Of a stretch of 39,809 nt of DNA, positions 23,886 to 31,048 are shown piece after piece. A program made the translations under genes and the position numbers. Within the stretch, counting starts at the first letter, position 1. Every line of letters begins with the position of its first letter. The DNA lies in the NCBI GenBank assembly GCA_030680085.1, contig JAUXWU010000118.1:1-39809 (forward strand), given 5' to 3'. Source of the DNA: Rhodocyclaceae bacterium. Its GTDB lineage: Bacteria; Pseudomonadota; Gammaproteobacteria; Burkholderiales; Rhodocyclaceae. The notes under the pieces were generated by a model, which was given only the letters and a program-made list of their open reading frames with translations, was not told the DNA's origin and did no database searches.

Positions 23886-24788
<903 letters not shown>

Positions 24789-24813
24789 ATTCAAAGCCTC
24801 CATTCTGGGAATT

Positions 24814-24840
24814 TTAGCACTCGGTCGCTGTGAGTGCTAA
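24814..24840. promoter_or_regulatory. CIRCE element (HrcA operator) upstream of rpoH
   Basis: TTAGCACTC-N9-GAGTGCTAA is a perfect match to the CIRCE consensus. On the rpoH strand the 3' arm runs into TAAAAT, a plausible -10 box, so bound HrcA would block the rpoH promoter. It also lies 70 bp before the Crp/Fnr gene on the other strand. Confidence 0.95.
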
Positions 24841-24910
24841 TAGTCTAACAAGTTCCCGACTGATTTACTATGGTTTTGTTGATTTCGGCTCTCGCCTAGA
24901 ATATCCCCAC

Positions 24911-25594
24911 ATGGAAAATCACCTCGTCACCCTGATCAAGCGCATGCCGTCGTTTGGGGATTTGCCGGCGCCAACACGCGCGCGGATCGCCGCCGCGACC
25001 GAGGAGCGCCGCTACGGGCGGGGTGTCGTGGTCTTGCAAAAAGGTGCGCGGCCGAGCGGTCTGTTTGTCGTCGTCTCTGGCAAGCTCAAGGAGTCCTGCT
25101 GCTCGCCCGGCGGCGAGGAGAAGGTCGTGGAAATCCTCGGCGTCGGCCAGACCTGCGGCGAGGCGGCGCTGTTTCTCGATAGCCCTTACCCGATGTGCGC
25201 CAGCGCACTGACCAACGCGGTGCTATTGCATGTCGAGAAGCAGGCCATCGAGGAGCTCATCGACGGCGCCCCGAAATTTGTCGGCCGGCTGCTGCAGGCG
25301 CTGGCCGAGCGACAGGATGCGATCCTGCGCGACATCGAGGCCGATGCCCGCTCCAGTCCGCTGCAGCAGGTGGTCGGTTATCTGCTCGAACAATGCCGCG
25401 CGGACGGCGCGGACACGGCGAGCATCACCCTGCCGGCGGCCAAACAGGTGATCGCCTCCCGCCTGAGCATGACGCCCGAGGCCCTGTCGCGCACCTTTCG
25501 CGATCTTGCCGACGCCGGCCTGATCGAGATGAGCGGCAAACGGGTAAAGCTGCTCGATGCCGCCCGGCTCGGTGAATTCGCGCGTTTACCGTAA
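24911..25594 (+). CDS. Crp/Fnr-family transcription regulator, DNR-like
   Basis: This 227-residue protein starts at MENHLVTLIKRMPSF; the track's 27-codon extension runs into the CIRCE region. An N-terminal cyclic-nucleotide-type beta-barrel (about 20-130: VVLQKGARPSGLFVVVSGKLKE) is followed by a long dimer helix and a C-terminal winged helix (LPAAKQVIASRLSMTPEALSRTFRDLADAGLIEM). The C-terminal domain closely follows the pattern of DNR, the haem-based NO sensor of denitrification genes. The four-cysteine FNR cluster motif is absent, though CC occurs at about 58-59. Given regBA and nos genes next door, NO- or redox-linked control of denitrification is likely but inferred. No FNR-type box was seen at its own promoter. 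Confidence 0.85.
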   Translation: MENHLVTLIKRMPSFGDLPAPTRARIAAATEERRYGRGVVVLQKGARPSGLFVVVSGKLKESCCSPGGEEKVVEILGVGQTCGEAALFLDSPYPMCASALTNAVLLHVEKQAIEELIDGAPKFVGRLLQALAERQDAILRDIEADARSSPLQQVVGYLLEQCRADGADTASITLPAAKQVIASRLSMTPEALSRTFRDLADAGLIEMSGKRVKLLDAARLGEFARLP

Positions 25595-25705: not shown

Positions 25706-26260
25706 TTAAGACCCCCCCGCGAGGGGGGCGAAGGGGGACGGGCGTTTCCCCAGTTTGCGCTGTAGCGTGCGGCGATGCATCTGCAGGGCACGGGCCGTGG
25801 CCGAGATATTCCCCTCATTTGCCTGCAATATGCGCTGAATGTGCTCCCATTCAAGTCGGCTGACCGACATGGGTTCGGCGGTGATGGCACCTTCGATTTC
25901 CGGGGTGGCATCCTCAAGGGCGGCGAGAATGGCGTCGATCTCTACTGGTTTGGCCAGGTACTGCATTGCGCCCAGCTTGATGGCTTCGACCGCGGTGGCG
26001 ATGCTGGCATAGCCGGTGAGCACGACAATGCGGCAGTCCTGCCGTGCCGCCAGCAATTCCGGGATCAGCGTCAGGCCTGAGGTGCCAGCCAGATTGAGAT
26101 CGAGCACGACAAGTTCCGGCGCCGCCTGCCGGATGACCGCCCGGGCCTCGTCCGGGCTGGTGACGCCGCGGGCGGGCATGCCACGCCGCACGAAGGCGCG
26201 CACCAGCACTGCATTGAAGGTGGCGTCGTCGTCGATAATCAGAATAGGAGCGGTGGTCAT
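25706..26260 (-). CDS. regA: RegA/PrrA/ActR-family redox response regulator
   Basis: This 184-residue regulator has a receiver domain with phospho-acceptor D54 (VVLDLNLAGTSGL) and K104 (LAKPVEIDAI). A short linker leads to a Fis-type helix-turn-helix (EGNISATARALQMHRRTLQRKLGKR), the almost invariant recognition helix of the RegA/PrrA family. The family controls respiration, CO2 and N2 fixation and denitrification in response to redox. It overlaps regB by 4 bp. The last dozen residues (PSPFAPLAGGS) come from a GC-hairpin tail, as in ntrC. Confidence 0.93.
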   Translation of the reverse strand: MTTAPILIIDDDATFNAVLVRAFVRRGMPARGVTSPDEARAVIRQAAPELVVLDLNLAGTSGLTLIPELLAARQDCRIVVLTGYASIATAVEAIKLGAMQYLAKPVEIDAILAALEDATPEIEGAITAEPMSVSRLEWEHIQRILQANEGNISATARALQMHRRTLQRKLGKRPSPFAPLAGGS

Positions 26261-27534
26261 GGTGAAATTCTATCCAGCGGTAGTTCGATGCGCGCCAGTC
26301 CGCCGCCACCCGCCGCGTTGGCGAGGACCAGTCGACCGCCCAGTCGATCGATGACGCCCTGTGTCAGCAGCAGGCCGATGCCGCTGCCGCCGCTGCCACC
26401 GAAATTGGCCGAAAACGGTATCCGGCCGGCCTGCCGCAGCACTTCAGCGGAAAATCCGGGACCCTGATCGCGCACCTCGATCACCAGCGTCGTCGCGTTC
26501 CATTGCACGCCAAGGACGATTTCGCCGCCGCCAACATTGGCGGCATTGTTGAGCAGGTTGATTACGCCCTGTTCCAGCGCCGGATCGGCGATGATTTCTG
26601 GCGTCGGCGGCTGTGCTGAAATCTCGACCCGGCTCGCGCAATGCGTTCGCTGCTGGCGCCAGCGACGATGAAGCGCGTCGATCCAGATATCGACGGCAAC
26701 GGCCGAGGCATTTTCAAGCCGGCCGACACCGGCACGCTCGGTCAGGCCGGTGAGGAGGGTCTTGCAGGCGGCAATCTGGCCGCGCAGGATGCCGATATCG
26801 GCACGCGCAGCCTCGTTCAAAGTGGTGTCATGCTCCAGTTCGCCGGCAATCACCGCCATGGTCGCCAACGGCGTGCCCAGCTCGTGCGCGGCGCCCGCCG
26901 CCAGGGCGCCCAGGGCGACGAGATGCTCGTCCCGCAGCGCCCGCTCGCTGGCGGCCGCAAGTTCGGCGTCGCGCTGACGGATGGTCGCCATCATGCGCAT
27001 GATGAACCAGGCCATCAGCGCCGCCGAAACCACGAAGGTCAGCCACATGCCGGAGAGGTGCAACTGCGCCGCGCGGCTGCCGTCGCCGATCGGCAACGGC
27101 ACGAACACCACCATCAGCGCCGAATAGGCGGCAATCGCCAGCCCGGTGACAACGACGACATAGGGGCGCGGCAGGGTCAGCGCCGCAAAGGCGACGGACG
27201 GCAGCAGCAGCGAAATCAGCGGATTGGTGGCGCCACCGCTAAAAAACATCAGGGCGGCGAGCGTCGCCAGATCGAGGCAAATCTGGCGGAACAGTTCGGC
27301 GGCGCTGGCCGCGGATATTGAACGGAAACGCCGCCAGGCAAAGCCGTTGAACAGGGCCGCGACGCCAATGATGGCGAGCAAGGGCAGCGCCATCAGCGGA
27401 ATGGCCAGCAGGAACGGGGCGACAAGAATTACCGCCGCCGCCAGGCCTAAGACGACCCAGCGCACGGCAATCAAACGGCGCAGGCTGGCGAGGGTTTGGG
27501 CGCCGTCCCAGCTCCGGCTCAGGTTCGATATCAC
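26257..27534 (-). CDS. regB: RegB/PrrB-family redox-sensing histidine kinase
   Basis: This 425-residue protein starts at a GTG (27534; VISNLSRSWDG) between the nosL stop and this frame; the 588-aa track ORF is antisense-extended. Six transmembrane helices span about 22-185. GGATNPL (100-106) corresponds to the quinone-binding GGxxNPF motif of RegB, with Leu instead of Phe. The H-box AAGAAHELGTPLATMAVIAGEL (H217) is RegB-type. C257 in QIAACKTLL is at the place of the redox-active cysteine. The ATPase domain ends with GGSGGSGIGLLL. It senses quinone/redox state and phosphorylates RegA. Confidence 0.9.
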   Translation of the reverse strand: MISNLSRSWDGAQTLASLRRLIAVRWVVLGLAAAVILVAPFLLAIPLMALPLLAIIGVAALFNGFAWRRFRSISAASAAELFRQICLDLATLAALMFFSGGATNPLISLLLPSVAFAALTLPRPYVVVVTGLAIAAYSALMVVFVPLPIGDGSRAAQLHLSGMWLTFVVSAALMAWFIMRMMATIRQRDAELAAASERALRDEHLVALGALAAGAAHELGTPLATMAVIAGELEHDTTLNEAARADIGILRGQIAACKTLLTGLTERAGVGRLENASAVAVDIWIDALHRRWRQQRTHCASRVEISAQPPTPEIIADPALEQGVINLLNNAANVGGGEIVLGVQWNATTLVIEVRDQGPGFSAEVLRQAGRIPFSANFGGSGGSGIGLLLTQGVIDRLGGRLVLANAAGGGGLARIELPLDRISP

Positions 27535-27569
27535 GAGCGGATTATCCTGAAAAACCGACGCCGCAGTGC

Positions 27570-28061
27570 CTAGAACTTGCCGTCGTCGAGCCGTGCGGGC
27601 AAATCGCGCGTTACCTGATCGAAGCGCAGAATTTTCTGGCCCTTGTGCTCCCGGAGGAAATCCTCGGCATCGGTGCGGGTGGCCAGCGGTATCAATTCGT
27701 GGCCCATCGGCCCCAGGACATCCGAGCCGATCACGTAGAAAGCATTTTTTGCGTCGACCTTCTGGAGGTTGTAATAATCGGTGACGGCAATCGTCATGAT
27801 GTCCTCGCGGCGGTGGTTCGGCGCATATTTGGGCAAATCGAACAGATATTTGAACATGTCCTTGGCGCCGTCGAAATGATGCGCGTGGCCGTTTCGGTAG
27901 AGCACCGTCGCCACCCAGTTCGGATATTTCGACACCAGCATGCCGCAGACGGGGCAAAGGTCGCGCGGCCCCGGCTTGGGCACGACGAGCGCCTGGGCGG
28001 AGGCCAGCCCCACCCAGACACAAAGTAAAACGATGAAAAAAACGCGCAGGCTACGCGGCAT
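27570..28061 (-). CDS. nosL: NosL-family copper-binding protein
   Basis: This 163-residue exported protein has a signal sequence (MPRSLRVFFIVLLCVWVGLASAQA) and the NosL copper motif PVCGMLVSKYPNWVA (CxxCGM), followed by FDGAKDMFKYLFD. NosL delivers Cu(I) during assembly of the CuZ site of nitrous oxide reductase. Typical NosL is a lipoprotein; no clear lipobox is seen here (the signal ends in LASAQA), so it may be soluble or kept by its signal helix. It overlaps the upstream NosL-like gene by one base (TGATG) and precedes regB by 35 bp. Confidence 0.88.
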   Translation of the reverse strand: MPRSLRVFFIVLLCVWVGLASAQALVVPKPGPRDLCPVCGMLVSKYPNWVATVLYRNGHAHHFDGAKDMFKYLFDLPKYAPNHRREDIMTIAVTDYYNLQKVDAKNAFYVIGSDVLGPMGHELIPLATRTDAEDFLREHKGQKILRFDQVTRDLPARLDDGKF

Positions 28062-28828: not shown

Positions 28829-31048
28829 ATGAAACAGCACCGATTTTCCATCGCGCTAGCCATCGCGGCCCTGCCTTTCACCTTGCACGCTCAGGACGAC
28901 GAACTGTTCACTGTCGTCGTGACGGCCCAGAAAATCCAGAGCTTGAATGCCACTCGTCTCGGTGGCGCAGACCTGGCTCCCTTGCGTCCGGCCACCAGCG
29001 ATACCGCCAGCCTGCTGCGTGACATTCCCGGCGTCAGCCTCTACGGCGCCGGCGGCGTTTCCAGCCTCCCGGCGATTCACGGCCTTGCCGATGACCGGCT
29101 GCGCATCAAGGTCGATGGCATGGACCTTATTTCCGCCTGCGGCAACCACATGAATCCGCCACTCTCCTACATCGATCCGACCCACGTCGGCAGCATCAAC
29201 GTATTTGCCGGCATCGCGCCGGTAAGCTCCGGCGGCGACAGCATCGGCGGCACGATTCTGGTCAATTCCCCCGCTGCGGAATTTGCCAAGGCCGGGCAAG
29301 GCCTGCTCCTCAAGGGCGCGGCAGGTGCCTTTTACCGCAGCAACGGCAATGCCAATGGCGGCAACCTTTCCGCGACCATCGCCAACGAAAAACTGAGCAT
29401 GACCTACAGCGGTTCGACCGCCAAGGCCGATAACTACACGGCGGGCGGCGACTTCAAGCCAGCCGGGCTTGCGGCAGCCGGTCGCGGCTGGCTGGCTGGC
29501 GACGAGGTTGGCTCGTCCATGTATGAGTCGACCAATCAGTCGCTCAAATTCGCGCTGCGCCACGAAAACCACCTGGTCGAGTTCAAGTACGGCGTGCAGG
29601 ACATCCCTGTCCAGGGCTGGACCAACCAGCGCATGGACATGACCGGCAACGACAGCACACAACTCAACCTGCGTTACCGGGGCCAGTTCGACTGGGGCGC
29701 ACTGGAGGCGCGTGCCTATAACGAAAAGACGCGGCACGTCATGCAATTTGGCGACGACAAGCTTTACTGGTATGGCTCAACCACGGCGGTGGACGGCATT
29801 CCCTGCGTGCCCAGCGGCGGCACCACCGGTTGTGCGGCGGGTATGCCGATGGATACCCAGGGCGACAACACCGGCGTGGTCGTCAAGGCGGACATCATCC
29901 TTTCGGCGCGCGATCTGCTGCGGGTGGGTGGCGAGGCCCAGCGTTATCGCCTCGACGACTGGTGGGATCCGTCCGGCAAAGGAATGTGGCCCAATGTTTT
30001 CTGGAATATCAACAATGGCGAGCGTGATCGTCTGGCCCTCTTCGGTGAATGGGAGGCGCAGTGGAATCCGCAATGGCTGACGCAATTGGGCCTGCGGCAC
30101 GAAACTGTCGATATGAATGCGGGCAATGTGCAGGGCTATAACGTTCTCTCCTATGGCGCTGATGCAACTGCCTTCAATGCCAAAGACCGCAAGAAGACCG
30201 ACCACAATCTGGACTTCACCGCACTGGCGCGCTATACGCCGGATGCCACGCAAACCTTCGAGGCCGGTTATGCCCAGAAAACCCGCTCACCCAACCTCTA
30301 CGAGCGCTACGCCTGGTCGACGGGCGGGATGGCGATGCGCATGATCAACATGACTGGCGACGGCAACGGCTATGTCGGCAATCTCGACCTGAAGCCGGAA
30401 GTGGCCCATACCCTGAGCGCCACCGCCGACTGGCACGATGCCGCGAAGGAGCAATGGGGCTTCAAGCTCACGCCCTACCTCACCTACGTCGATGATTACA
30501 TCGATGCCGCCCGGATCGCCACCACCTACACATCGACACAGTACGTCTATCTCCGCTTCGTCAATCAGTCTGCCCGGCTGTATGGCCTGGATCTCTCGGG
30601 CCACTTCCCGTTGGCGAAGATCGATGGTTACGGCAGTTTCACCGCAACCGGCAAGTTGAATTACGTGCGCGGCAAGAACCGCACGACCGGCGACGATCTC
30701 TACAACATGATGCCGCCGAACGCGAAACTGGCTGTGGTGCATAAGCTCGGTGCCTGGACCAATACCCTCGAAACCGAACTGGTGAGCGCCAAGGACCAGG
30801 TTAACGCAGAGCGCAACGAAGTCCGGACGTCCGGCTATGGCCTGATCCACCTGCGCAGTAGTTACGAGTGGAAGCAGGCGCGCTTCGATATCGGTATCGA
30901 GAACCTGTTCGACAAGCTCTACAAGCATCCGCTGGGCGGCGCTTACCTGGGCCAGGGCAAGACCATGTCCGGAACGATTGTCCCCTGGGGCGTTACCGTT
31001 CCCGGCATGGGCCGCTCGATTTACGCCGGGGTGAACGTCAAGTTCTGA
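28829..31048 (+). CDS. TonB-dependent copper receptor, NosA/OprC-like
   Basis: This 739-residue outer-membrane receptor has a Sec signal (MKQHRFSIALAIAALPFTLHA) and a plug domain (LLRDIPGVSLYGAGGVSSLPAIHGLADDRLRIKVDGM). A 22-strand barrel ends in aromatic SIYAGVNVKF. ISACGNHMNPPLSYIDP matches the NosA/OprC plug motif, with a CxxxM copper site (C104, M108). HxM (H303, M305 in TRHVMQFGD) matches the second half of the OprC copper site. It therefore probably imports copper, with the need set by NosZ. It faces away from the two NosL genes. Confidence 0.88.
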   Translation: MKQHRFSIALAIAALPFTLHAQDDELFTVVVTAQKIQSLNATRLGGADLAPLRPATSDTASLLRDIPGVSLYGAGGVSSLPAIHGLADDRLRIKVDGMDLISACGNHMNPPLSYIDPTHVGSINVFAGIAPVSSGGDSIGGTILVNSPAAEFAKAGQGLLLKGAAGAFYRSNGNANGGNLSATIANEKLSMTYSGSTAKADNYTAGGDFKPAGLAAAGRGWLAGDEVGSSMYESTNQSLKFALRHENHLVEFKYGVQDIPVQGWTNQRMDMTGNDSTQLNLRYRGQFDWGALEARAYNEKTRHVMQFGDDKLYWYGSTTAVDGIPCVPSGGTTGCAAGMPMDTQGDNTGVVVKADIILSARDLLRVGGEAQRYRLDDWWDPSGKGMWPNVFWNINNGERDRLALFGEWEAQWNPQWLTQLGLRHETVDMNAGNVQGYNVLSYGADATAFNAKDRKKTDHNLDFTALARYTPDATQTFEAGYAQKTRSPNLYERYAWSTGGMAMRMINMTGDGNGYVGNLDLKPEVAHTLSATADWHDAAKEQWGFKLTPYLTYVDDYIDAARIATTYTSTQYVYLRFVNQSARLYGLDLSGHFPLAKIDGYGSFTATGKLNYVRGKNRTTGDDLYNMMPPNAKLAVVHKLGAWTNTLETELVSAKDQVNAERNEVRTSGYGLIHLRSSYEWKQARFDIGIENLFDKLYKHPLGGAYLGQGKTMSGTIVPWGVTVPGMGRSIYAGVNVKF

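Follow-up and report, generated by a model that had tools for sequence, protein, structure and literature searches.

A perfect CIRCE element, the predicted operator of the HrcA repressor, lies just upstream of rpoH, the gene for the heat-shock sigma factor sigma-32. This arrangement is a trait of the class to which the genome belongs (the beta- and gamma-proteobacteria), in which CIRCE at rpoH tracks the presence of hrcA across ~160 sampled rpoH genes. Judging from the manner in which the element overlaps two promoter-like sequences, we consider it quite probable that it is a functional HrcA operator inside a double rpoH promoter, and that HrcA directly represses rpoH and thereby gates its sigma-E input. 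Such control is probably class-wide, in which case one repressor would gate the whole heat-shock regulon.

The first-pass annotation of the window (the whole 39,809-nucleotide stretch of DNA analysed here) had placed a perfect CIRCE element at the rpoH promoter, and this was confirmed with respect to both the element and the gene. An exact search of the window returned a single CIRCE, which spans 24814-24840 and matches the layout TTAGCACTC-N9-GAGTGCTAA without any mismatch, as a perfect 9-9-9 inverted repeat. A chance occurrence was ruled out, because only ~0.01 matches would be expected in the window, even at 3 mismatches. The product of the downstream gene matches the TIGR02392 'RpoH' equivalog model with 380 bits (cut-off, 323), and the likely rpoH start is located 25 bp downstream of the inverted repeat. 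We chose ATG 24788 as this start because GGAGG stands 8 nt upstream of it; an alternative ATG at 24803 is the start of the longer ORF in the ORF list. The features discussed in this study are as follows.

23886..24788, minus strand: rpoH, heat-shock sigma factor sigma-32, 300 aa (above the TIGR02392 cut-off; end-to-end alignment with relatives)
24797..24801, minus strand: Shine-Dalgarno sequence GGAGG, 8 nt before ATG 24788 (read from the sequence)
24811..24819, minus strand: predicted extended -10 of the sigma-70 type, TGCTAAAAT, made up of the CIRCE right arm plus AAT (promoter scan)
24814..24840, no strand: CIRCE, predicted HrcA operator (exact match; one of two in the genome)
24829..24833, minus strand: predicted -10 of the sigma-E type, TCACA, made up of the last 2 bases of the CIRCE left arm plus 3 spacer bases (conserved TCnnA)
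24850..24856, minus strand: predicted -35 of the sigma-E (RpoE) type, GGAACTT (pattern match; offset enriched in 142 relatives)
24911..25594, plus strand: CRP/FNR-family regulator, 227 aa, divergent from rpoH (PF00027 and PF13545)

The annotation had made its proposal depend on the presence of hrcA, and the genome, a draft assembly of 2.44 Mb (96.6% complete, 225 contigs) in which all genome-wide statements are pattern searches, contains one intact copy: a full-length ORF with a PF01628 match of 228.8 bits. Only two CIRCEs were found genome-wide (≤3 mismatches), one upstream of groES in groESL and the other upstream of rpoH, and the same search found none at hrcA itself. The hrcA gene (L001 1447-2466, minus strand) is followed by a ferrochelatase-like ORF and is not located in a dnaK operon. 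The genome also encodes RpoE, in a gene (G000:C216) that scores above the TIGR02939 cut-off and is followed by an rseA-like ORF.

CIRCE at rpoH and hrcA across genomes

Is a CIRCE at rpoH peculiar to this genome? The annotation had implied as much, treating the arrangement as an oddity, but within the class it is the rule. Among the 80 nearest RpoH loci, which belong to named genomes that are nearly all betaproteobacterial by name, CIRCE (≤2 mismatches) was present upstream of rpoH in 78. We also considered a wider sample of rpoH upstream regions, drawn from a spread of Burkholderiales families and from further orders of the class, in which hrcA was counted per genome and the lineages beyond the 80 named loci are known by rank. 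In the Burkholderiales genomes with hrcA, CIRCE (≤3 mismatches) was found at 94 of 96 rpoH genes, and the remaining two had it at 4 mismatches, whereas in those without hrcA it was found at 0 of 9. The other gammaproteobacterial orders gave a similar picture, with CIRCE at rpoH (≤3 mismatches) in 48 of 49 genomes that have hrcA versus 2 of 6 that do not, a pattern that fits an operator kept only alongside its repressor; the genomes compared are related, so that these counts are not independent events and the p-values given below express the strength of a pattern. As for the two genomes with CIRCE but no hrcA, they may be drafts from which hrcA is missing. In a separate sample of the phylum, CIRCE was present at rpoH in 5 of 5 genomes with hrcA and 0 of 10 genomes without it within the class, and in 0 of 14 genomes with hrcA in other classes. 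Because CIRCE follows hrcA inside the class and is absent from rpoH in the genomes sampled elsewhere, we regard it as a trait of the class that is tied to the repressor.

Promoter sequences overlapping the operator

When 142 rpoH upstream regions were aligned on CIRCE, two more conserved signals became apparent, both of which are assigned to promoter types by consensus match, and a consensus match is not proof of use. One is of the sigma-E type. GGAACTT (at least 6 of 7 matches) starts 16 or 17 bp before CIRCE in 51 and 19 of the 142 sequences, respectively, compared with about one sequence at most other offsets, and in the full pattern GGAACTT-N16-TCnnA, the conserved TCnnA sits at CIRCE positions 7-11. 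With related Burkholderiales genomes counted individually, the -35 and -10 halves were found to co-occur (Fisher p = 2e-11). In the window, the two halves lie ~16 bp apart at 24829-24856, and this is one of two exact matches to GGAACTT-N16-TCNNA in 2.44 Mb. A reversed control pattern gave nine matches; therefore, the motif by itself is no rarity, and it is its position that constitutes the evidence.

The other signal is of the sigma-70 type. The right arm GAGTGCTAA continues into AAT to form TGCTAAAAT at 24811-24819, an extended -10 of the form TGnTAAAAT that resembles TGnTATAAT, and TGnTAnnnT is present in 137 of the 142 relatives. A promoter scan independently picked TTAGCA-18-TAAAAT with its TG. 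The final T of this element occurs at 138 of 142 rpoH CIRCEs (97%) versus 3 of 38 groESL CIRCEs (8%; p = 3e-29). The possibility that the flanking AAT is an extended HrcA contact was ruled out by the same comparison, in that the T accompanies just 3 of the 38 groESL elements.

The two putative promoters differ in how widely they are distributed. A recognisable sigma-E -35 is missing at this place in about a third of the CIRCE-bearing relatives, among them the loci of Ralstonia, Cupriavidus, Pandoraea and Herbaspirillum, and the sigma-E half is absent in 11 of the 43 sampled families of Burkholderiales. CIRCE and the predicted extended -10 are nearly universal, but the same does not hold for the predicted sigma-E half.

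At rpoH, the embedded promoter parts hold a fixed position relative to CIRCE, and they are missing from the groESL CIRCEs of the same order, at which TCTnA was found in 0 of 38. In Burkholderiales, the groESL CIRCE is instead preceded directly by CCCTATTA, which resembles a sigma-32 -10; therefore, the groESL and rpoH operators appear to stand in different promoter settings, and HrcA would oppose sigma-32 at groESL and both sigma-E and sigma-70 at rpoH. An autoregulatory sigma-32 -10 in the manner of groESL was not seen before the rpoH CIRCE. We also noted that the groESL upstream regions L249-L288 carry CCC-TATTA, a sigma-32-like -10, directly before CIRCE, so that the signals for HrcA and sigma-32 are likewise fused at groESL.

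Some genomes without hrcA allow the operator and the promoter to be viewed apart. In G033, which has no hrcA, the palindrome is gone, and GGAACTT-N16-TCATA and TGATAAAAT are kept; its congener G077, which has hrcA, carries a perfect CIRCE. G111, a genome of another order that is also without hrcA, keeps GGAACTT-N16-TCTCA and has no CIRCE. Because the promoter pattern is kept without the palindrome in G033 and G111, we deduced that promoter and operator are separable, and that the operator alone was lost with the repressor. In other hrcA-less genomes, neither the sigma-E-type motif nor CIRCE was found at rpoH. Viewed irrespective of hrcA, the rpoH region of a Nitrosospira (L048) has no CIRCE but shows a sigma-E-like GGAACTT-N17-TCTTA at about the same distance.

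Relation to known systems

In many bacteria, the HrcA/CIRCE system controls groESL and also hrcA-grpE-dnaK. The operator sequence and the repressor family are the same in the case described here, and groESL also has a CIRCE in this genome, but the target is the sigma-32 gene, and the operator is embedded in putative sigma-E and extended -10 promoters. The upstream region of E. coli rpoH contains GAACTT-N16-TCTGA, which matches the sigma-E promoter P3 described for that gene, and the general pattern GAACTT-N16-TCnnA is thus found upstream of rpoH in both cases. In contrast, the E. coli sequence has no CIRCE at rpoH and E. coli, which served as a control, has no HrcA, whereas in the window the predicted -10 is part of the HrcA operator.

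A predicted CIRCE upstream of rpoH was reported in 2004 for Geobacter sulfurreducens (site at -51, Table 8; PMC545781). The likeness is close, in that a perfect CIRCE lies just upstream of rpoH and groESL is also a target. However, this is a single deltaproteobacterial case, reported with no promoter analysis, and hrcA-grpE-dnaKJ is also a target there (PMC545781), unlike the hrcA gene of the present genome, which is without CIRCE. The predicted sigma-E input at rpoH agrees with published work in two betaproteobacteria in which rpoH is driven by sigma-E: in vitro transcription of rpoH (fam) by SigE has been shown for Bordetella bronchiseptica (PMC3490749), and RpoE of Burkholderia pseudomallei controls a heat-inducible rpoH promoter (PMC5994319). 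The passages on these promoters do not consider HrcA control in either species, and the Bordetella paper does not mention CIRCE. Our search of the open literature for CIRCE at rpoH in betaproteobacteria turned up nothing beyond Geobacter, and we found no report there of a class-wide rule or of embedded promoters. The sigma-32 and HrcA regulons of the beta, gamma and epsilon classes are reportedly the subject of a 2003 study by Permina & Gelfand, which lay outside this search and in which rpoH may already be listed.

A proposed circuit and its alternatives

How might HrcA act at this site? The annotation had proposed that HrcA gates rpoH and, through it, the sigma-32 regulon, and apart from the supposed oddity of the arrangement, the comparison supports this proposal well, with an intact hrcA, a CIRCE that lies over promoter-like sequences and a CIRCE that tracks hrcA. 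In the circuit that we envisage, the left half of CIRCE would contain the -10 of one promoter, of the sigma-E type, and the other promoter, of the extended -10 sigma-70 type, would take its -10 from the right half and the adjoining AAT. While GroE is free, HrcA would be folded, and HrcA dimers would sit over the two -10 elements and hold rpoH at a low level. Once GroE is taken up by unfolded proteins, HrcA would come off the DNA, groESL and rpoH would be released together, and sigma-32 would then raise the remaining heat-shock regulon. Because groESL would be derepressed too, GroE would later restore HrcA and close the loop. Envelope stress would reach rpoH via sigma-E, within the limit set by HrcA. 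The analysis shows the sequence elements together with their positions, conservation and linkage to hrcA, whereas we infer the binding of HrcA, the occlusion, the link to GroE and the direction of the effect; a link between GroE and HrcA is established in other bacteria.

It might be supposed that HrcA controls the sigma-70-type promoter alone, and that the sigma-E match in the window is inherited or due to chance and is unused. Such a reading would suit the relatives, roughly a third, that lack the sigma-E -35 but carry CIRCE and the extended -10, and also the near-invariance of the last T of the extended -10 (138/142). We nevertheless find it rather unlikely, because Bordetella SigE transcribes rpoH (PMC3490749), the -35 here is a perfect GGAACTT whose spacing, 16 nt, is that of E. 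coli rpoH, and the sigma-E halves co-occur across genomes and persist after the loss of CIRCE. That CIRCE is a functionless relic in this genome is barely credible, given that the palindrome is perfect, that hrcA is intact and that hrcA-less lineages lose the palindrome.

CIRCE can fold into a hairpin, and the groE CIRCE elements of Gram-positives have been described as influencing mRNA stability. On this basis, the element could exert its main effect at the mRNA level, where a 5'-UTR hairpin would affect the stability or translation of rpoH, but we regard this as very improbable: transcription from either predicted promoter would begin within CIRCE or beyond it and give transcripts without the full hairpin, and the tie to the presence of hrcA points to protein binding. 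Nor do we give appreciable weight to the idea that CIRCE serves the divergent CRP/FNR gene instead of rpoH. The element does lie in the intergenic region that the two genes share, ~70 bp before the CRP/FNR ATG, but it stays with rpoH where no homologue of the CRP/FNR gene adjoins, and all of the promoter-like sites found point to rpoH.

Repression of rpoH by HrcA at a double promoter thus remains our preferred reading, and it bears on how heat-shock control is viewed. Models of sigma-32 control are mostly derived from E. coli, a species without HrcA. A broader proposal, on which our own judgement is evenly balanced, is that rpoH is a core HrcA target in the beta- and gamma-proteobacteria that keep hrcA, that the 45-bp composite acts as an AND-NOT gate at which sigma-E and sigma-70 fire only with HrcA off, and that E. 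coli-type rpoH control, through sigma-E and in the absence of HrcA, is the remainder after repressor loss. If HrcA directly represses rpoH in all beta- and gamma-proteobacteria that have hrcA, two systems that are usually treated as parallel would form one hierarchy, with the repressor above the sigma factor, and in these bacteria the deletion of hrcA would be expected to turn on the sigma-32 regulon as a whole. The sigma-E -10 within the operator would, in addition, be a concrete, mutable site at which envelope stress and cytoplasmic folding stress are joined.

An effect of CIRCE on the divergent gene, which the annotation had called DNR-like and thought might also be affected, was not supported. 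The gene matches no DNR model, its best NCBIfam matches being sub-threshold FtrB, FixK and CRP models, and the promoter scan found no promoter-like site for it overlapping CIRCE. None of the 80 nearest rpoH loci has this gene beside rpoH, and CIRCE is conserved in them regardless. Control of this gene by CIRCE was rejected on the grounds of this non-adjacency and the lack of promoter overlap, and the gene is probably outside the HrcA circuit. Next to it, at 25706-28023 (minus strand), a response regulator and a histidine kinase lie side by side as a redox-type two-component pair, for which the best models are ActR/PrrA/RegA and ActS/PrrB/RegB, respectively, both below the cut-off. Further along, at 28829-31048 (plus strand), the window encodes a TonB-dependent receptor whose best NCBIfam models, also sub-threshold, are haem/haemoglobin and copper receptors.
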